Source: Anaerorhabdus furcosa
GTDB taxonomy: Bacteria; Bacillota_I; Bacilli_A; Erysipelotrichales; Erysipelotrichaceae
Direction of reading: 5' to 3'
Length of the DNA: 64,000 bases
Assembly: GCF_900167375.1 (NCBI RefSeq)
Contig: NZ_FUWY01000007.1
Coordinates: 1 to 64,000, forward strand
Shown: positions 1 through 58,266 of the stretch, piece by piece
Numbering within the stretch: position 1 is the stretch's first letter
Layout of the letters: each line of letters starts with the position of its first letter
Program-made: the position numbers and the translations under genes
The notes under the pieces: generated by a model
The model's input: the letters and a program-made list of their open reading frames with translations, nothing else
What the model was told of the DNA's origin: nothing
The model's database searches: none

Positions 1-110
1 AGCGAACGATCTTTGAAAACTGAATAGGAAATTAAACAACGAACGTCAATTAAAAAGGAAACAAAAAGGATAAAACTGACAAAGAAGTCAGTGTCATAAA
101 TGAGCAATTC
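1..110 (+). promoter_or_regulatory. rRNA operon leader with boxA-like element
   Basis: Leader of the rRNA operon; the promoter lies outside the window. It holds TCTTTGAAAACTGAATA (10-26), repeated exactly in the 16S-23S spacer (1715-1731). That placement is typical of boxA antitermination signals in Firmicute rRNA operons. A small hairpin, ACTGAC/GTCAGT (75-92), sits just before the 16S gene and may take part in 5' processing (inference). Confidence 0.65.
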
Positions 111-1636
<1,526 letters not shown>

Positions 1637-1886
1637 AAGGAGAAAGAAGTACAGTAATTGAGTTAAGCGTTTATTTCCTATTTAGTTTTGAGAGATCGGT
1701 GATTTCTCAGAAGTTCTTTGAAAACTGAATAACAGAGAAAGACAGATATTAAGGTCTTTCCGAAAAGTTGAAAAACTAGATTTCAAAAATCAGAACAGCA
1801 ATGAAATGATTTTAGGAAAAACATAGTAAAAACAGTTCAATCTAAAAAAAGAAGTCCACGAGAAGAAATCTCAGTCTTGTGGCGAA
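1637..1886 (+). other. 16S-23S spacer without tRNA
   Basis: About 250 bases with no tRNA cloverleaf. It contains a TATTTAGTTTTGAGAGA block (1679-1695) followed by a GAGAAATC-type hairpin, and the boxA-like TCTTTGAAAACTGAATA (1715-1731). The stretch just before the 23S gene is complementary in part to the bases after it, as expected for a processing stem. Confidence 0.8.
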
Positions 1887-4791
<2,905 letters not shown>

Positions 4792-4850
4792 GTCAAGAGT
4801 AAAACAAACACAACAACAATTCGGAAAGATACAAAAAATGTCTTAAACTG

Positions 4851-4877
4851 TTATTTAGTTTTGAGAGAATTTCTCTC
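4851..4877 (+). repeat. Spacer repeat before 5S rRNA
   Basis: The block TATTTAGTTTTGAGAGA is repeated from the 16S-23S spacer (1679-1695). Here it continues into the hairpin GAGAGAATTTCTCTC. It probably serves rRNA processing or reflects homogenised operon spacers. Confidence 0.6.
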
Positions 4878-4881
4878 ACAA

Positions 4882-4997
4882 ATCTGGTAATGATGGCGAA
4901 ATGGTCACACCTGTTCCCATACCGAACACAGAAGTTAAGCATTTCAGCGGCGATTATAGCTATGCACGCCATAGTGAAACTAGCTCGTTGCCAGGTA
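4882..4997 (+). rRNA. rrf: 5S ribosomal RNA
   Basis: About 115-base 5S rRNA starting TCTGGTAATGATGGCG. It contains the conserved CCCATACCGAACACAGAAGT core, and its 3' end (GTTGCCAGGT) pairs with the 5' end. It follows the 23S gene by about 90 bases and is closed by a strong terminator. Confidence 0.93.
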
Positions 4998-23827: not shown

Positions 23828-25594
23828 TTAAAGTAATTTGTAACGGTCTAATAATTCTTCAATCATTGTGCCTTTGACTTTACTAAATGCTTTCTTTTCA
23901 AACATCTTTACAATGAAGGGTACTTTAAGGCTAGTTATCTTTTCACCATCCATTAATTTTGATGTAGCATCAAGAAGACAACGTACATCATAACAAGATC
24001 CAAAGACTTCAGGCACACCACGGTCAATATCAAGAAGAGTGTATACAGCTTCCATAGCTGTTCTTACTGAGTATTCTGTTGTAAAGACACAATCTCTTTT
24101 TGTTTCTGCAAACTGTCCAATGAATGCAAAGTTAATAGCTCCATTTGGTACAACAAGAGGACGATCACCTTGAGTACGTGGCATAAAGAATGAAGTAATA
24201 TAAGGCATCATGCAAGGGATACAAGTTGTTGATTCTGTAAATTCCTCAATACGATTTGTAGGGACACCAATATGATATAACCATTCCATCACGATTTCTT
24301 TACCAGTACACTCTTTCATTGGCTTCTTAATATAATCTCCGGGTACATTTGTATAAAGTCCATAGAACCAAATCACTATCTTATTGTCAGGTTGACTCTT
24401 GAAATGAGGTTGACGATTGATGGTCCAACTGCATAGCCAACTAGAATCTTTAACTGTAACAATTCCACCAGTTACAACTTTGCCACTATGGGGGTCACGT
24501 TTGCATATCTTTTCAATATAAGGTGTTATCTTATTGTCATTTAGTGTTATTGTTGCGGATTCCCAATTGGTTTTATCAATATCGGTGCAATATTTCTCAG
24601 GATGACCAAACGCATCATCTTGCGCAGCAATCTTCTTCCATAACTCCCAACAACCGCCAGGTTGTGTATTTAATATAGGTGCATGTTGATCATCACCCAA
24701 AGTTGAATTCTCAGTACAACTACCATTCGTAATAAAGACAAGATCAGTATCGAGTAAATCAATTTGACTTAGCTGGTTGTTTTGTTCAATAAGAATTTGT
24801 TTTGCGCGTTTTACTTCATCGGTAGTTTCGAATTTAATATCGATTACTTTTGTGTTGTATATAAAATGTACATGATGTGCTTCTAGGTATTTTTGCATAG
24901 GGAGAATAAGAGATTCATATTGGTTATACTTGGTAAATTTTAATGCTGAGAAATCTGGTAATCCTCCAATATGATGAATAAAACGTTGAATGTATAATTT
25001 CATTTCTAATGCACTGTGCCATTTTTCAAATGCAAACATGGTTTGCCAATACAACCAGAAATTTGATTTGTAGAATTCTTCATCGAAAACATCATCAATT
25101 GTTTTGTCATATAAATCTTCATCTTTTGTTAAGAATAATTTAGTGATTTGGATGGATGCTTCTTGCGATAAATTGAACTTGTTATTTGTTTTTGCATCTT
25201 CTCCTTGATGAAGAGTAGCTCGACATAAGGAATAGTTTGGATCTTCTTTATTCAACCAGTAGAACTCATCTAATACAGAGGCATCCGGTGTTTCTAATGA
25301 AGGAATAGAGCGAAATAAATCCCATAGACATTCAAAGTGGTTTTCCATTTCTCTTCCACCACGAATAATAAATCCTTTGTTGGGATCATTTATTCCATCG
25401 CAAGCACCACCTGCAATATTAAGTTCTTCAAAGATATGAATATTTTCACCTTTCATTTGACCATCACGTATAAGGAAACATGCTCCTGCCATTGATGCTA
25501 AACCACTTCCTACAAAGTATGCAGATTTTAAATCAACATCCTTTGGTTTTAAAGGTTTTGCGAAAGCTTCATAATTACCATTACTATAATACAT
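23828..25594 (-). CDS. ohyA: Oleate hydratase (myosin cross-reactive antigen family)
   Basis: 588 residues, full length for the family. FAD-dependent oleate hydratases add water to the cis-9 double bond of unsaturated fatty acids, which detoxifies them. The dinucleotide loop is AYFVGSGLASMAGACFLIRDG (about 26-46), followed by FEELNIAGGACDG and GGREMENHFECLWDLF, all typical. The C-terminal part has PNGAINFAFIGQFAE. A GGAGG ribosome site precedes the start. Upstream lies a TetR regulator on the same strand, separated by a terminator. Confidence 0.96.
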   Translation of the reverse strand: MYYSNGNYEAFAKPLKPKDVDLKSAYFVGSGLASMAGACFLIRDGQMKGENIHIFEELNIAGGACDGINDPNKGFIIRGGREMENHFECLWDLFRSIPSLETPDASVLDEFYWLNKEDPNYSLCRATLHQGEDAKTNNKFNLSQEASIQITKLFLTKDEDLYDKTIDDVFDEEFYKSNFWLYWQTMFAFEKWHSALEMKLYIQRFIHHIGGLPDFSALKFTKYNQYESLILPMQKYLEAHHVHFIYNTKVIDIKFETTDEVKRAKQILIEQNNQLSQIDLLDTDLVFITNGSCTENSTLGDDQHAPILNTQPGGCWELWKKIAAQDDAFGHPEKYCTDIDKTNWESATITLNDNKITPYIEKICKRDPHSGKVVTGGIVTVKDSSWLCSWTINRQPHFKSQPDNKIVIWFYGLYTNVPGDYIKKPMKECTGKEIVMEWLYHIGVPTNRIEEFTESTTCIPCMMPYITSFFMPRTQGDRPLVVPNGAINFAFIGQFAETKRDCVFTTEYSVRTAMEAVYTLLDIDRGVPEVFGSCYDVRCLLDATSKLMDGEKITSLKVPFIVKMFEKKAFSKVKGTMIEELLDRYKLL

Positions 25595-25704: not shown

Positions 25705-26247
25705 TTAAAGCATATATTTTACGATGTCACCTGAGGTTATTTTGCTTATTCGAGTAATAATGAGATGATAGTCAGCTTTCATACCATTTCTTATCCACTC
25801 AAGGACATTACCAACAATTGCGTAAGCAATAAAACTCTCAATGAACTTTTTATCATCAACACTTAATATTTTATCTTGATCTAAATCACGAATTACAAGT
25901 TCAAGATAATGTATCTGTATTTGATAAAGATAACGTTCAATCATTTCTCTACTTACAGAATGATAGACATTCGTAAAGAAGTTTTTATTTTGAAGCATAT
26001 AAGCAAATACATCTTCTAAACAAATTGTCCAGTTTTCATAATTTACCTCGGTTTGCATCGCCGCTTGTGTTTCTCTTATAAAAATCCAATCAAGCAATGC
26101 ATAGATATCTTGAAAATGATAATAGAAGGTTTGGCGATTTACCCCACAATCATCAGCAACTTCAGTTACTGTGATACTATCTAATGTTTTTTCACTTAGC
26201 ATTTTTTTCAATGATTCACCAAGAGCAATTTTAGTTAGTTCTTTCAT
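25705..26247 (-). CDS. TetR/AcrR-family regulator
   Basis: 180 residues. The N-terminal helix-turn-helix reads ITVTEVADDCGVNRQTFYYHFQDIYALLDW (about 24-53), the classic TetR pattern with NRQTFYYHF. The C-terminal helical part resembles the DhaS-like group and would hold the ligand pocket. It is adjacent to ohyA with a shared 9-mer in both control regions, so a fatty-acid-responsive repressor of ohyA is a reasonable inference. Confidence 0.9.
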   Translation of the reverse strand: MKELTKIALGESLKKMLSEKTLDSITVTEVADDCGVNRQTFYYHFQDIYALLDWIFIRETQAAMQTEVNYENWTICLEDVFAYMLQNKNFFTNVYHSVSREMIERYLYQIQIHYLELVIRDLDQDKILSVDDKKFIESFIAYAIVGNVLEWIRNGMKADYHLIITRISKITSGDIVKYML

Positions 26248-26410: not shown

Positions 26411-26438
26411 TTGACTTGGAAATACTTTAAAATATAAT
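26411..26438 (+). promoter_or_regulatory. oppA promoter
   Basis: TTGACT (26411-26416), 16-base spacer, TATAAT (26433-26438). A second TTGACT sits at 26404-26409. Confidence 0.75.
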
Positions 26439-26475: not shown

Positions 26476-28131
26476 ATGAAAAAGTTAGTTTTAGCATTAC
26501 TTACTTTAGGTCTTGTGCTAAGTACTGCTGCTTGTTCTTCTAAACCAGCTGGTAATACAGGTGGTACAAGTGGTGGAACTCACACAATCCGTGTTCTTAA
26601 TTACGAAAGCAAATCTGCTACAGTACTTATGGAATACGTTGTTCAACAATGGGAAGAATTATTTGGAGATTATCCAGTAGAATTCGTAATCGATACACTT
26701 CCTTTTGCTGAAAAATTACAAAAATGTACAGAGGGGGATTTTGAAATTTCATTCTCAGGATGGTCTCCTGACTATGCATGGCCAACTACATTCTTAAACA
26801 TGTGGACAATTGGCAGTGAATACAACGAAGTTGGATACGCTAGTGAAGAGTATACTAAATTAGTTGATGGAACAGACAAAGATCCTGCTCAAGCATTTGC
26901 TGATTTACAAGCAGCTGAAAAAGTATTACTTGAAGATGGTATTTTAATTCCAGTTTACCAACGTGGTGGAACTATGGTTCAAAGCCCAGATGTAAAAGGA
27001 ATTATTAAACATTCAATCGGTTTTGATTATAGTTACAAATGGGCTACAAAAGCTGATGGCTCAATGATTAATTTACTTGAAACAGAAAAAATGCCTTCAT
27101 TAGATGCAATGCTTGCAACTGATGCAGTATCATTCTTAAACTTAGGAAACCTTTCTGAAGGTTTATTAATTCCAGGTGAAGCTGAAGGTTCAGTATTACC
27201 AGGGGTTGCTTCTGATTGGAACTTTGATGAAGCTACAATGACTTGGACTTTCAACTTACGTCCAGAAGCATCTTGGATTAACTCTAAAGGTGAAGTTGTA
27301 CGTCCAGTAAGCGCTGAAGACTTTGAATATGCATGGAACCGTGTATTTGCTGATGATTCAATCGCACAATACAAATTCATGAAAGACACTGCTAAGATCG
27401 TTGAATATGGTGCTAAAGATGACCATACATTCACAGTTACAGTATCTGAAAACGTTCCTTATTTTGAATCATTAATGTCATTTGGTACATTCTTACCAGT
27501 ACCAGTTGAATTTGTTGAAGAAAAGGGTGCTACTTATGGTACTACTCTTGATACATTCTTAAGTAATGGTCCATTCTATTTAAGCAAATGGGATCATTCA
27601 AGTGAAGTTATTTGGTCTAAAAATGAAAATTACTGGGATGCTGATGTAGTTCAAATTCCAGGTGTTACTTACCGTGTAATCGAACAATACGATCCAGCTA
27701 CAGGTGTTGCATTATTCAATGATGGTGCAATTGACCGTGTAGGATTAACTGGTGAATTCGTTGATCAATTCAAAGATGATCCACGTGTTTGGAAATTTAC
27801 TGAAGCTTCAACATTCTACTTCATGATTAACGTTGGAAACGCTAATGGTGTATTAGAAGCATACGATGCAGAAAATGGTGGAAACCCACTTCTTGATAAT
27901 GTAAATGTTCGTAAAGCATTAGCATTAGCATTCGATAAAGCATTCATTGCTTACGAATTAGATAAGAATGGAAACATTCCTGCTGATTACTTCGTACCTT
28001 CTGCATTCTCAACTTATGAAGGTGAACCATTTGAAGCAGCTCGTGGTGAAGGATATATGCACTACAATACTGAAGAAGCTCTTAAATACTGGGAAGCTGG
28101 TATGGCTGAATTAGGTATTGAAAAGAAATAA
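26476..28131 (+). CDS. oppA: Oligopeptide-binding lipoprotein, circularly permuted OppA-like
   Basis: 551 residues. A lipoprotein signal ends at Cys20 (STAAC) and a Gly/Thr linker follows. Residues about 37-191 then match the normally C-terminal lobe of OppA-type proteins (FEISFSGWSPDYAWPTTFLN, AEKVLLEDGILIPVYQRG, and the usual terminal DYSYKWA). Residues about 197-551 match the normally N-terminal part (MPSLDAMLATDAVSF, the VSAEDFEYAWNRVF motif, SNGPFYLSKW, NVNVRKALALAFDKAF) and end at EAGMAELGIEKK, where ordinary OppA proteins continue. The order is therefore swapped relative to the family. Start ATG 26476 follows GGAGGG. First gene of the opp operon, separated from oppB by a hairpin. Confidence 0.9.
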   Translation: MKKLVLALLTLGLVLSTAACSSKPAGNTGGTSGGTHTIRVLNYESKSATVLMEYVVQQWEELFGDYPVEFVIDTLPFAEKLQKCTEGDFEISFSGWSPDYAWPTTFLNMWTIGSEYNEVGYASEEYTKLVDGTDKDPAQAFADLQAAEKVLLEDGILIPVYQRGGTMVQSPDVKGIIKHSIGFDYSYKWATKADGSMINLLETEKMPSLDAMLATDAVSFLNLGNLSEGLLIPGEAEGSVLPGVASDWNFDEATMTWTFNLRPEASWINSKGEVVRPVSAEDFEYAWNRVFADDSIAQYKFMKDTAKIVEYGAKDDHTFTVTVSENVPYFESLMSFGTFLPVPVEFVEEKGATYGTTLDTFLSNGPFYLSKWDHSSEVIWSKNENYWDADVVQIPGVTYRVIEQYDPATGVALFNDGAIDRVGLTGEFVDQFKDDPRVWKFTEASTFYFMINVGNANGVLEAYDAENGGNPLLDNVNVRKALALAFDKAFIAYELDKNGNIPADYFVPSAFSTYEGEPFEAARGEGYMHYNTEEALKYWEAGMAELGIEKK

Positions 28132-28149
28132 GTATACTTATGATTATAG

Positions 28150-28180
28150 AAGAGCGCTGCATGCGTGTAGCGCTCTTTTC
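28150..28180 (+). terminator. Intra-operon terminator between oppA and oppB
   Basis: AAGAGCGCT / AGCGCTCTT stem with a 10-base loop, then TTTTC. Probably a partial terminator, giving more binding protein than permease. Confidence 0.8.
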
Positions 28181-28275: not shown

Positions 28276-29241
28276 ATGTTCAAATATGTATTAAAAAGAA
28301 TTGGGCAAATGTTGATTACACTCTTTTTAATAATGACGATTCTGTTCTTATTATTAAAAATTACTCCTGGATCACCATTTAGTAACCCAAAAATTACTCC
28401 TACTTTACGTGCGCAATTAGAGGAAAAATATGGATTAGACAAACCAATATTAACGCAATATGGTATGTATCTTTCTAATGTGCTGCAAGGGGACTTAGGA
28501 GAATCAATCGTAATGATTAAAAACTATCCAGTTAAGGATATGGTTGCTGAGCCTTTAGCAATCACAATTAAATTAGGGGTTATTTCATTATTTGTTGGAT
28601 CTGCCATCGGTATCTTTTTAGGGGCTTTAGCGGCATTAAACAGAAATCGATTCTGGGATTATTTCAATACGATTATTGCCGTTGTTGGGGTCTCGGTTCC
28701 AGCCTTTGTTGTGGCGATGGTGTTACTAATCCTGCGTCAGGATTATTTCCCATTTATACCATTGATTTTCTCGAAAGCTGATCCGATTAAAGGAGTAACT
28801 GCTTTGGATGAACTTGTATCTTTGACATTACCAGTTGTTTCACTTTCATTTGGTGTTATTGCTAGTATTTCAAGATATATGCGTACAGAACTTGTTGAAG
28901 TTTATAACACAGACTATATTTTATTAGCTCGTGCTAAAGGATTAAACAAGCGTCAAGTATTTACACGCCATGCCTTTAGAAATGCATTAGTACCTATTAT
29001 TACTGTTATGGGTCCAATGGTTGTTGCATTAATGACAGGTAGTGTTGTTGTTGAGAAGTTCTTTGGAGTTCCAGGACTAAGTCAATTGACAATCAAATCA
29101 ATCAATGTAAAAGATACATTCGTAACATTAGCATCAGAACTTCTATATAGTTTAATGTTTGTTGTTACTATGCTCATAGTAGATTTACTCTATGGGGTTA
29201 TTGACCCTAGAATCCGCTTAAGTGGAGGTGACAAGAAATGA
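28276..29241 (+). CDS. oppB: Oligopeptide ABC transporter permease OppB
   Basis: 321 residues with about six membrane segments. N-terminal MFKYVLKRIGQMLITLFLIMTILFLLL is the usual OppB opening. The EAA loop reads YILLARAKGLNKRQVFTRHAFRNALVP, which contacts the ATPases. The ribosome site is GAGGGAAG, and the gene overlaps oppC by four bases. It forms the channel with OppC. Confidence 0.95.
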   Translation: MFKYVLKRIGQMLITLFLIMTILFLLLKITPGSPFSNPKITPTLRAQLEEKYGLDKPILTQYGMYLSNVLQGDLGESIVMIKNYPVKDMVAEPLAITIKLGVISLFVGSAIGIFLGALAALNRNRFWDYFNTIIAVVGVSVPAFVVAMVLLILRQDYFPFIPLIFSKADPIKGVTALDELVSLTLPVVSLSFGVIASISRYMRTELVEVYNTDYILLARAKGLNKRQVFTRHAFRNALVPIITVMGPMVVALMTGSVVVEKFFGVPGLSQLTIKSINVKDTFVTLASELLYSLMFVVTMLIVDLLYGVIDPRIRLSGGDKK

Positions 29242-30416
29242 GTTGGTTTAAGAAAAATAAAAATGATATCGTTGAAACAAACGTTATCGAAGAAGTAGAA
29301 GTTAAAAAAGAAGATTTCGTCTTTGAAAAAGCGAGTGTAGTAGAAGCAGAAGGATTAATGAAAAAACCTTTAACATTCTGGAAAGATGCTTTTTTAAGAC
29401 TATTACAAAATAAATTTGCAGTTGGATCAGTTATTGTTATCTTACTTATGGTTACGATGGCAATTGTAGCTCCAATGACTTCAAAGTATGATTTAAATAA
29501 AGCTGTAAGTAAAAATCAAACACTTGTAACTCAATTGCCTCCAAGAATTCCATTTGTTGAAAACTTAGGAATATTTGATGGAACATTGATTAAAGAAACA
29601 ACTGAAGCTCGTCTTGCTACTGATTATCAACCAGATGAGTATAAAATTATAGATCGTTATACACGTGATGGTGTAGATTATGTAAAAGTTAAAGAATATA
29701 CATATAAAATTAAAGGTCTAGAAAATGAATATTTCTATTTTGGTACTGACCAAATTGGACGTGATATTTGGACTCGTTTATGGTATGGAGCTCGAATTTC
29801 ATTATTAATTGGTTTCTATGCTGCATTAATTGATGTCCTTATTGGAGTTGTCTATGGAGGTATCGCTGGTTTCTATGGTGGTAGTCGACTGGATGATATT
29901 ATGATGCGTATCACTGAAATATTGTATGGTATACCATCAATCGTTATCTTATTTATTCTATTCATGTTCCTTGAACCAGGAATTGTTCCAATAGCCATTG
30001 CGATTGCCCTTACCGGTTGGATTGGGGTTGCTCGTATGGTTCGTGCACAATTCTTACGTTTAAGAGATCAAGAATTCGTATTGGCGGCAAGAACATTAGG
30101 TGCTAGTCCATTCAGATTAATTATGAAGCACTTGATTCCAAACGTAGTCGCTCAAATCGTAGTTATGGCATCATTCTCGATTCCAAACGCAATTTTCTAT
30201 GAAGCATTCTTAGCGTTTATTGGTATTGGTATGAATGTTAAAACACCATCGTTGGGAACAATGATTGATAATGCCTTAGGTACTACTTATGGGGCAATGA
30301 CTTATGTATATCAATTAATCATTCCTTGTGTTGTTTTATCAATACTTATGTTATCAATTAACTTACTCGCAAATGGATTACGTGATTCACTTGATCCAAG
30401 AATGCGCGGGAATTAG
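29238..30416 (+). CDS. oppC: Oligopeptide ABC transporter permease OppC
   Basis: 392 residues, longer than the roughly 300 usual for OppC. There is a charged N-terminal extension (about 1-45). An extra exported loop of about 95 residues (about 85-170) lies between the first membrane helix and FGTDQIGRDIWTRLWYGAR, the conserved start of the core. The EAA loop is FVLAARTLGASPFRLIMKHLIPNV, and the C-terminus is the typical LRDSLDPRMRG. Overlaps oppB; oppD follows after 12 bases. Confidence 0.94.
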   Translation: MSWFKKNKNDIVETNVIEEVEVKKEDFVFEKASVVEAEGLMKKPLTFWKDAFLRLLQNKFAVGSVIVILLMVTMAIVAPMTSKYDLNKAVSKNQTLVTQLPPRIPFVENLGIFDGTLIKETTEARLATDYQPDEYKIIDRYTRDGVDYVKVKEYTYKIKGLENEYFYFGTDQIGRDIWTRLWYGARISLLIGFYAALIDVLIGVVYGGIAGFYGGSRLDDIMMRITEILYGIPSIVILFILFMFLEPGIVPIAIAIALTGWIGVARMVRAQFLRLRDQEFVLAARTLGASPFRLIMKHLIPNVVAQIVVMASFSIPNAIFYEAFLAFIGIGMNVKTPSLGTMIDNALGTTYGAMTYVYQLIIPCVVLSILMLSINLLANGLRDSLDPRMRGN

Positions 30417-30428
30417 GAGGAGATTAAT

Positions 30429-31467
30429 ATGGAAAAACAAAGAGTACTCAATATTAAAAACCTTCGTGTTTCATTTAAAACTCATAACGGTTTAGTTAAA
30501 GCTGTTCGTGGAATTGATTTAGAATTATACGAAGGTGAAACGTTAGCAATTGTTGGTGAATCTGGTTGTGGTAAATCAGTTACATCAAAAACAATTATGG
30601 GTTTACTTGCAGATAATGCAGTTATCGAAAGTGGTGAAGTTGAATACAAAGGTGTAAATCTTTTAAAACTTCATGAAAATGAAATGGCTAAGTATAGAGG
30701 AAAAGACATTGCAATGGTCTTCCAAGATCCAATGACTTCACTTGATCCAGTTATGACGATTGGACGCCAAATCACAGAATCATTAATTCAAAACTTAAAT
30801 ATGAAAAAGGATGAAGCAAAAGCTAGAGCAATCGAACTTATTTCGATGGTAGGGATTGATAATCCTGAAAAACGTTTTAAACAATATCCTCACCAATTCT
30901 CGGGGGGGGATGAGACAACGTATTGTTATCGCAATTGCCTTATCATGTAATCCAAAAATCTTAATTTGTGATGAACCTACTACGGCACTTGATGTTACAA
31001 CACAAGCACAAATTCTAGAACTTATTAAAGATCTTCAAAACAAACTAGGTGTATCTGTTATCTTCATTACACATGACTTAGGTGTTGTGGCTAACATGAG
31101 TGATCGTGTTGCGGTTATGTATGCTGGTAAAGTAGTAGAAGCAGGTTTGGTTGATGAGGTTTATTATAATCCTCAACATCCATATACATGGGGACTACTT
31201 GCCTCTATTCCTGCATTCCAATCTAAAGATCATAAATTGTATGCAATTCCAGGATCTCCACCACAAATGATTAATCCTCCAAAAGGTGATGCATTTGCGC
31301 TAAGAAGTGAATATTCAATGAAGGTAGACTTCATGTTTGAACCTCCTTACTTTAATGTAAGTAAAACACATTATGCTGCTACATGGTTATTACATCCATA
31401 TGCGCCAAAAGTTGAAAAACCAATACAAATTCAACAACGCATAGATAGCATGCTAAAGAAAGGATAG
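30429..31467 (+). pseudogene. oppD: Oligopeptide ABC transporter ATPase OppD, frameshifted
   Basis: Two frames together encode a normal OppD of about 345 residues. The first (30429-30950) has Walker A GESGCGKSVTSK and the Q loop VFQDPMTSLDP, and runs into HQFSGG before reading out of frame. The second frame carries [24 protein letters not shown] and the H-loop [13 protein letters not shown], and ends at 31467. The break is in a run of eight G (30902-30909); seven would restore SGGMRQR. It may be a sequencing slip, a real mutation, or a switchable tract. The C-terminal cysteine motif of many OppD proteins is absent, as in several Gram-positive homologues. Confidence 0.85.
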
Positions 31468-31473
31468 TTTAAA

Positions 31474-32421
31474 ATGGAAAAGAATGTATTATTAAAAGTC
31501 GATCACATTAAGCAATATTTTAAACTAGACAAGAAAAACATAGTTAAAGCAGTTGATGATGTTTCATTTGAAATCTATCAAGGAGAAACATTTGGTCTAG
31601 TAGGTGAATCTGGTTCAGGTAAAACTACAATTGGTCGATCAATTATTCGTTTATATAACATTACAGATGGTGATGTAGTATTTGATGGTAAAAAGATTAC
31701 TGGGAAAATTTCAAAAGAAGATCGTTCTTTTGTAACACGTAATATGCAAATGATTTTCCAAGACCCTATGGCATGTCTTAATCCTCGTATGAGTGTTAAA
31801 GACATCATAGCTGAGGGAATTGATATTCATAAAATTGCGAAGACAAAAGAAGAACGTGATGAATTAGTTTACAAAATCCTTGAAAAAGTAGGATTAAGTA
31901 AAGAACATGCAGGACGTTATCCTCATGAATTCTCTGGTGGGCAACGTCAACGTATTGGAATTGCTCGTGCACTCATTACAAATCCAAAACTTGTAATCTG
32001 TGATGAACCTATTTCAGCACTGGATGTATCAATTCAATCTCAAGTAGTTAACTTGCTTAAGGAACTTCAAGCAGAACTTGGACTTACTTATTTATTCATA
32101 GCACATGATTTATCAATGGTACGTTATATCTCTGATAGAATTGCGGTTATGCATAAAGGTAAACTTGTAGAACTTGCTCCAGCAGAAGAATTGTATGTGA
32201 ATGCACTTCATCCATATACAAAATCACTCTTGTCAGCAATTCCTAAGCCAGACCCAAGAAGTGAAAAAGTAAGAGTACGTCATGATTATGAACCTAATGA
32301 ACATGATTATGAAAACGATAAACCTTCAATGAGAGAAATCAAACCAAACCATTTCATTTATTGTAATGATCAAGAATTTGAAGAATATAAAAAGGAAGTT
32401 GCAACTCAACATGAGGTTTAG
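31474..32421 (+). CDS. oppF: Oligopeptide ABC transporter ATPase OppF
   Basis: 315 residues. Walker A GESGSGKTTIGRS, Q-loop MIFQDPMACLNPRM, signature FSGGQRQRIGIARAL, Walker B LVICDEPISALDVS and H-loop IAHDLSMVRYISD are all intact. The C-terminal oligopeptide-family extension HPYTKSLLSAIPKPDP is present. OppF pairs with OppD to power uptake; with oppD broken as written, the transporter would lack one ATPase half. Last gene of the operon. Confidence 0.95.
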   Translation: MEKNVLLKVDHIKQYFKLDKKNIVKAVDDVSFEIYQGETFGLVGESGSGKTTIGRSIIRLYNITDGDVVFDGKKITGKISKEDRSFVTRNMQMIFQDPMACLNPRMSVKDIIAEGIDIHKIAKTKEERDELVYKILEKVGLSKEHAGRYPHEFSGGQRQRIGIARALITNPKLVICDEPISALDVSIQSQVVNLLKELQAELGLTYLFIAHDLSMVRYISDRIAVMHKGKLVELAPAEELYVNALHPYTKSLLSAIPKPDPRSEKVRVRHDYEPNEHDYENDKPSMREIKPNHFIYCNDQEFEEYKKEVATQHEV

Positions 32422-49399: not shown

Positions 49400-49879
49400 G
49401 TGGCGAAGATTAAACCGGAATTTCGCATGATGAAAAATGGTTATGATCGATTTGCAGTAGATGATGCTATTGAAGAATATGCTACAGAAATTGAAACTTT
49501 AGAAAGTAAGCTTGCGCTATACGAAAAAGAGATTCAAGATTTATCTGAACAGTTGAATTCAGTACGAAATCGATATCAAGTCATTGTCAGTGAGTTATCA
49601 ATAAAAGAGAAGGCTGCTGATGATATTGCTAGACTTGCATTAAAGGAAGCTAATATTATTATTGATTCAGCGCAATCCAATGCGGATTCAATTGTAAGAG
49701 AAGCACTTTCAACTGCTCGCATCATCTTATCTGATTTATCACGTATCTCTATTGATGCAAGTGTAATGAAAGATGAAATGCATGAGCAACTAACACAACT
49801 TATTCAAGCGATTGATGACTTTGAAATTCCAAAGTTACCAGAAGTTGAATGGATAAAAGATTTTGAATTTAAAAAGTAA
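49400..49879 (+). CDS. divIVA: DivIVA-family cell-pole protein
   Basis: 159 residues from GTG 49400, eight bases after AAGGAG. The N-terminal lipid-binding domain FRMMKNGYDRFAVDDAIEEYATEI precedes a long coiled coil (about 30-125). DivIVA marks curved membrane and organises septum and poles. Directly downstream of ylmH; the ileS T-box leader follows at once. Confidence 0.92.
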   Translation: MAKIKPEFRMMKNGYDRFAVDDAIEEYATEIETLESKLALYEKEIQDLSEQLNSVRNRYQVIVSELSIKEKAADDIARLALKEANIIIDSAQSNADSIVREALSTARIILSDLSRISIDASVMKDEMHEQLTQLIQAIDDFEIPKLPEVEWIKDFEFKK

Positions 49880-49889
49880 AGATTAAGAC

Positions 49890-50092
49890 ATGCTACTTAT
49901 AGTTGATGATAGAGAGTCTATGGTTGGTGGAAATAGATAGAGAGTATAAGATAGATATCACTTATGAACTGATTTCTTGAAACAAGTAGAGAAATTCGTA
50001 TTCCGCGTTAAGGAATTGAGGGCATAGAGAAATCTATGAACTAAGGTGGTACCGCGTACAACACGTCCTTAGATGATAGGGACGTTTTTTTT
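49890..50092 (+). promoter_or_regulatory. T-box leader, tRNA-Ile specific
   Basis: The stem I distal loop is TCTATGGTTGGTGGAAATAGA-like (49918-49937). The specifier is ATC (49957-49959). The T-box AAGGTGGTACCGCG is at 50043-50056. The terminator ACGTCCTT / AGGGACGT with T run is at 50063-50092. Matches ileS downstream. Confidence 0.94.
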
Positions 50093-58167: not shown

Positions 58168-58266
58168 TTCTCTCTTCCTTATCGTTGTTAGCGTTACCAC
58201 CTTACTTTGTGCAGGTTGGTATGGTCTCATCGAGCTAACCCTCTAAACCATTCTTGATAAATGACT
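58168..58266 (-). promoter_or_regulatory. SAM-I riboswitch (S-box) of metK
   Basis: On the minus strand the P1 strand TTATCAAGA (about 58260) is followed by AGAGGG, GATGAGACCATACCAACC (kink-turn and binding core), AAGGTGGTAACGCTAACAAC and the closing GATAAGG (about 58175). This matches the S-box consensus order. SAM binding should allow the terminator to form and lower metK expression. Confidence 0.93.

Follow-up and report, generated by a model that had tools for sequence, protein, structure and literature searches.

Evidence for a circularly permuted OppA peptide-binding lipoprotein in Anaerorhabdus furcosa and for recurrent permutation among its relatives

A 64,000-nucleotide stretch of the Anaerorhabdus furcosa genome (assembly GCF_900167375.1, contig NZ_FUWY01000007.1, positions 1 to 64,000), referred to here as the window, contains a gene for an OppA-type peptide-binding protein in which the part that normally closes the protein stands before the part that normally opens it. 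Does this gene encode a genuine, circularly permuted OppA, how could it have arisen, and is it a single case? The original prediction, made from sequence alone, proposed a circular permutation with a lipoprotein signal ending at Cys20, closing motifs such as DYSYKWA in residues ca. 37–191 and opening motifs such as SNGPFYLSKW in residues ca. 197–551, each segment present once and the stop lying where OppA normally continues. All of these claims held, with the motifs as described, and the permutation itself is supported by swapped database matches, a high-confidence structural model and comparison with a relative whose oppA keeps the normal order beside a collinear operon.

The gene is an intact open reading frame of 551 codons with an ATG start preceded by GGAGGG. 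The best phmmer match in the PDB, Bacillus anthracis OppA (6npo_A), aligns in two stretches of swapped order, with residues 37–191 corresponding to 6npo_A 385–542 (i-E 2.8e-26) and residues 194–548 to 6npo_A 32–381 (i-E 2.4e-45), and both Listeria monocytogenes OppA (5kzt) and B. subtilis DppE (8ay0) are split identically. A canonical profile, built from 23 normally ordered OppAs, places model positions 394–553 on the first part of the protein and 45–392 on the second. By this profile ca. 508 of the 510 core positions occur exactly once, with nothing lost and nothing doubled, while the stop follows model position 392 and a 2-residue tail, the point where canonical OppA carries on. Pfam recognises SBP_bac_5 (PF00496) in two stretches (E 1.4e-57, 195.9 bits, cut-off 32.4) and no other family.

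Read from its start, the protein consists of signal peptide, anchor Cys and linker, then the old C-terminal third and, after a fusion stretch of ca. 5 residues, the old N-terminal two thirds. Its edges, where the signal meets the C block, at the C-to-N junction and where the N block meets the stop, are all three clean and in frame. The sequence is rotated by ca. 355 residues relative to ordinary OppA, and the swap is absent from all of the ca. 125 other OppA homologues that the canonical-profile procedure scored as normally ordered. The protein departs from the linear order of ordinary OppA and, because its N and C parts are swapped, is filed as a permuted variant rather than as an ordinary member of SBP family 5. 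We consider it very likely that the gene product is a genuine OppA in circularly permuted form, serving as the oligopeptide-binding lipoprotein of the Opp importer encoded directly downstream, in the absence of binding or transport data.

The permeases and ATPases of this importer follow in the usual order (28276–32421; Table 1), with oppD frameshifted. Its frameshift, in a run of eight G, could stem from a mistake in sequencing, from decay of the gene or from a tract of variable length, and this copy of the operon may accordingly be impaired or simply mis-sequenced in the assembly. Near-upstream on the minus strand, inspection by eye identified a 588-amino acid FAD protein resembling oleate hydratase (23828–25594) and, beside it, a TetR-like regulator (25705–26247). 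Elsewhere in the window, Rfam locates an rRNA operon at its start (110–4996), a T-box leader (49870–50073) and a SAM riboswitch (58176–58263).

Table 1. Features of the oppA gene and the Opp operon, in window coordinates.
Feature	Position	Strand	Basis
Promoter-like site TTGACT-16-TATAAT upstream of oppA	26411..26438	+	Consensus match only, 11/12
Circularly permuted oppA, 551 aa lipoprotein	26476..28131	+	Pfam, phmmer, canonical profile, AlphaFold2
Lipoprotein signal peptide (starts MKK), lipobox STAA-C, anchor Cys20	26476..26535	+	Sequence motif, no experiment
Flexible anchor linker SSKPAGNTGGTSGGTH, Gly/Ser/Thr-rich	26536..26583	+	pLDDT <50 at residues 1–31
C block, residues 37–191, closing part of canonical OppA (6npo 385–542)	26584..27048	+	phmmer, canonical profile
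Fusion junction KADGS, old C-terminus to old N-terminus	27049..27063	+	phmmer; surrounding model pLDDT >90
N block, residues 197–549, opening part of canonical OppA (6npo 32–381)	27064..28122	+	phmmer, canonical profile
Terminator-like hairpin 3' of oppA	28148..28179	+	
oppB permease	28276..29241	+	NCBIfam Opp3B is best family
oppC permease	29238..30416	+	Collinear with L036 oppC
oppD ATPase, broken by one-base frameshift in G8 tract near 30901–30910	30429..31467	+	
oppF ATPase	31474..32421	+	

Structure prediction, proposed earlier as a check on the permutation, yielded a confident OppA-like model. AlphaFold2, run on 110 aligned homologues (permuted and split, with permuted anchor rows among them), returned a mean pLDDT of 89.7 and a pTM of 0.87. 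Values exceed 90 across the junction of old C-terminus and old N-terminus (residues ca. 190–200) and fall below 50 only in the signal and linker (1–31) and in the loop 456–463. The best Foldseek matches of the model are OppA, DppE and PrgZ, all OppA-type peptide-binding proteins of cluster C. Against 6npo (E 2.7e-22, 382 columns) the TM is only ca. 0.5, because an order-dependent alignment can cover just one block. The two-lobed cluster C fold is thereby met as a model prediction, resting on a superposition of this order-dependent kind. The two long model strands 438–451 and 157–169 we take to be the hinge strands into and out of lobe III; on this reading, the new ends of the protein, as well as the other two cut points described below, are all inferred to lie in loops of lobe III.

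The nearest relative of the window protein is encoded in genome G099 (locus L036, protein L004), where oppA has the normal order, as it also does in G139. Window positions 28306–32414, spanning oppB to oppF, are collinear with L036 at 69% DNA identity, and in oppA itself the blocks are exchanged, window 26695–26919 aligning with L036 7138–7362 and 27328–27762 with L036 6217–6648. The two blocks share 53% and 50% identity with L004, and both are nearest to this same canonical protein. A canonical OppA is also encoded elsewhere in the window genome (G000:C2), with 31–36% identity.

The original prediction had missed that the rearrangement is no one-off; a search of related genomes revealed the permuted order to be recurrent, with three cut points. 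A junction profile (A3), running from the old C-terminal end to the old N-terminal start, was searched against 273 genomes of the same family, most of whose named neighbours are Erysipelotrichaceae or 'Solobacterium' MAGs, ruminant guts being a frequent source. Stop-free matches through the junction were found in 27 of them (ca. 10%), most of which were verified by sequence and canonical profile, and four other families within the order and class contribute a few more permuted OppAs (G292, G330, G507 and G515). Of the 160 OppA homologues collected, a set enriched by the search for permuted members, the canonical profile identifies 35 as distinct permuted proteins. Their cut points are confined to three places. 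Cut A (model 389–392/394) is that of the window and G206, with G059 and G237, from another OppA subfamily, close by; cut B (model 313/314) occurs in a g3 clade, a g32 clade, G178 and G515, with G507 near, and is the cut of the G002/G092/G115 clade; and cut C (model 476/478) occurs in G094, G330, G292 and a g32 clade, and is the cut of the G165/G197/G148 clade. Differences between loops in their tolerance of new ends and an anchor may account for the restriction to three. The lipobox Cys is present in 34 of the 34 permuted proteins with a complete start, the remaining one being truncated by a contig end, and one permuted gene examined elsewhere sits in an intact oppABCDF operon.

Several other observations accompany this census. 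The cut B protein of G507 (L172 967–2844) bears an acidic repeat tail at its end (STDDESTDDE...). The junction matches of G205 and G208 seemed partly spanning and turned out to be canonical. A 1729-amino acid frame in G105 is not a double OppA but a different fusion onto canonical OppA; in this frame (L042 2663–7849, G105:C179) RCC1-like and fibronectin-type-III-like stretches, recognised by eye, precede a C-terminal OppA of normal order. Between two and four oppA-like genes stand in tandem in L097, L113, L114, L117 and L120, which are Enterococcus, Vagococcus and Lactobacillaceae records.

A tree of 148 OppA proteins, each rotated to canonical order, contains 12 order changes, 11 of them between normal and permuted. 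One tree change rests on L059 (5821–7515), a normally ordered OppA placed inside the cut B permuted clade, and by the AU test a single permuted clade around it remains compatible with the data (p 0.176); the safe number of switches is hence ca. 10, and L059 cannot be accepted as a proven return to normal order. L004, which is normally ordered, is the sister of the window protein (99% SH-aLRT), the cut B protein L173 comes next on a long branch, and from this position the permutation of the window protein is most simply explained as an event of its own. Inferred from the gene tree and the profile together, permutation of OppA is recurrent in related bacteria, with about ten switches and three recurring cut points.

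Two block exchanges can be followed against normally ordered relatives. In the recent case of G206 (L159), compared with the normally ordered L078–L080, the flanks of the locus retain 77–82% DNA identity on both sides, while the blocks have been exchanged in place between signal peptide and stop at ca. 80% DNA identity. The 480-base C block (L159 3063–3542) corresponds to L080 1734–2213 and the 1030-base N block (3552–4578) to 693–1719, each with 81% DNA identity. A short GGD spacer separates the blocks in both orders, and could also derive from the linker of another relative. L038 and L059 (77% protein identity) likewise differ by an in-place exchange, at cut B. In the cut B clade, furthermore, pairwise comparison of nine permuted genes gives dN/dS values of 0.06–0.17 where dS is unsaturated, indicating for this clade, and not for the window gene, that permuted OppA is kept as a working protein under purifying selection.

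The following scheme of function and origin is inferred. The window OppA would fold into the usual two-lobed clam, capture peptides and deliver them to OppBC of the OppBCDF importer, no binding data being available. Its new ends would lie in a lobe III loop, placing the lipid tether on lobe III rather than lobe I. Tandem duplication, fusion and loss of the outer halves is the usual route to permuted genes. In the case of oppA, a tandem duplication would have been followed by in-frame fusion of the end of copy 1 to the start of copy 2 and by loss of the outer N and outer C blocks, as the original prediction also proposed. Tandem oppA genes are present in relatives (e.g. L097, L113 and L117) and could be the raw material for such a route. 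The origin remains an inference, with no fused, double-length OppA intermediate among the listed open frames. Similar events may have been repeated within the same bacterial family, with only cuts in three loops being kept.

Several alternative explanations require consideration. An assembly misjoin, with fragments of a normal oppA or of a tandem copy joined in the wrong order, gains some support from the draft state of the genome, which is the sole representative of its genus, and from the one-base oppD frameshift, which hints at sequence errors. However, the three edges are clean and in frame, signal and stop are intact and the operon is collinear, while permuted OppAs are found in many assemblies from separate projects, G206, G059 and G237 being cut at a position matching that of the window gene, so that this explanation is all but excluded. 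Refutation would have required, according to the original prediction, both normal order in relatives and an assembly join; this is half met, as normally ordered relatives exist, but the edges and the independent projects, some with the window's own cut point, speak against a join. The gene could also be a pseudogene, a functionless permuted leftover of a tandem array, considering that oppD is frameshifted and that the canonical OppA elsewhere in the genome could do its job. Yet the frame is open and full-length with nothing lost, the lipobox is kept and a promoter-like site is present, while strong purifying selection acts on permuted genes elsewhere, and one permuted gene that was examined lies in an intact oppABCDF operon; we regard this as very unlikely. 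A chimera, in which the C and N blocks stem from different oppA paralogues rather than from one rotated gene, is conceivable given the tandem paralogues of relatives. This can be practically ruled out for the window protein, because both of its blocks point to the same relative, L004 of G099, at like identity (53% and 50%), as do those of G206 to L080 (81% and 81% DNA), although separate block trees are lacking.

A closer rival accepts the permuted protein as real but derives it by other recombination, either circle excision and re-insertion or a microhomology-driven block swap. G206 resembles an exact in-place exchange with its flanks kept and the GGD spacer in both orders, and no double-length intermediate appears among the listed open frames; on the other hand, a repeat search of the window gene detected only short, chance-like repeats, and the tandem oppA genes of relatives make duplication plausible. 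We judge this alternative unlikely, with direct block exchange remaining possible because no fused intermediate has been seen. Returning to recurrent permutation, a bolder reading is that it is possibly adaptive, such that either selection has repeatedly favoured a membrane anchor on lobe III over one on lobe I, or these loci have a recombination route of their own, the outcome being ca. 10 lineages with only three cut points and perhaps one or more reversions to normal order (L059). This we offer tentatively, the balance at present tilting slightly against it.

Most of the known natural circular permutations go back to one ancient event in their family, and for this reason their origin and benefit are hard to study. 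With ca. 10 switches, three cut points and unpermuted sisters at 77–84% identity in the same operon position, the OppA set provides a natural test bed in which duplication versus block exchange, the cut sites tolerated and the effect of anchoring the other lobe are directly testable. Permuted OppAs are also misjudged by order-dependent sequence and structure searches, and they offer natural models for permuted peptide sensors.

With regard to known systems, the window protein is homologous over its whole mature length to OppA of SBP family 5 (PF00496; cluster C; 6npo, 5kzt and PrgZ 4faj). Both are lipoproteins encoded with oppBCDF and share the same predicted fold, the inferred difference being that the lipid anchor of the window protein enters at lobe III. 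The junction of old C-terminal end and old N-terminal start is spanned by none of the 60 best-matching PDB sequences, and a separate NCBIfam model for permuted OppA was not found. The other permuted OppAs of the bacterial family (G002/G092/G115; G206, G059 and G237; G094 and G165/G197/G148) belong to the same class and share the rotation logic and the lipobox, with cuts B and C differing from the cut A of the window. The original prediction knew of no natural permutation in this family, and no description of a permuted OppA was found in the openly licensed literature searched, where the nearest precedent is TpMglB-2 (Tp0684), a circularly permuted, 'Type Ic' glucose-binding protein (PMC4990184). 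It resembles the window OppA as a natural permutation of a tethered ABC-importer binding protein, and its authors likewise suggested a link to membrane anchoring (PMC4990184). TpMglB-2 differs in its Type I/cluster B sugar binding, a fold not met by the window protein, which has SBP_bac_5 as its only Pfam family and cluster C OppA-type proteins as its best PDB matches; in addition, its permuted part is poorly conserved in sequence and it lacks a comparable series of switches with unpermuted sisters at 77–84% identity. Circular permutation as such is a familiar phenomenon, and for importers a sugar-binding protein has already been described in permuted form; what is new, within the openly licensed literature searched, is a permuted OppA and its unusual recurrence.
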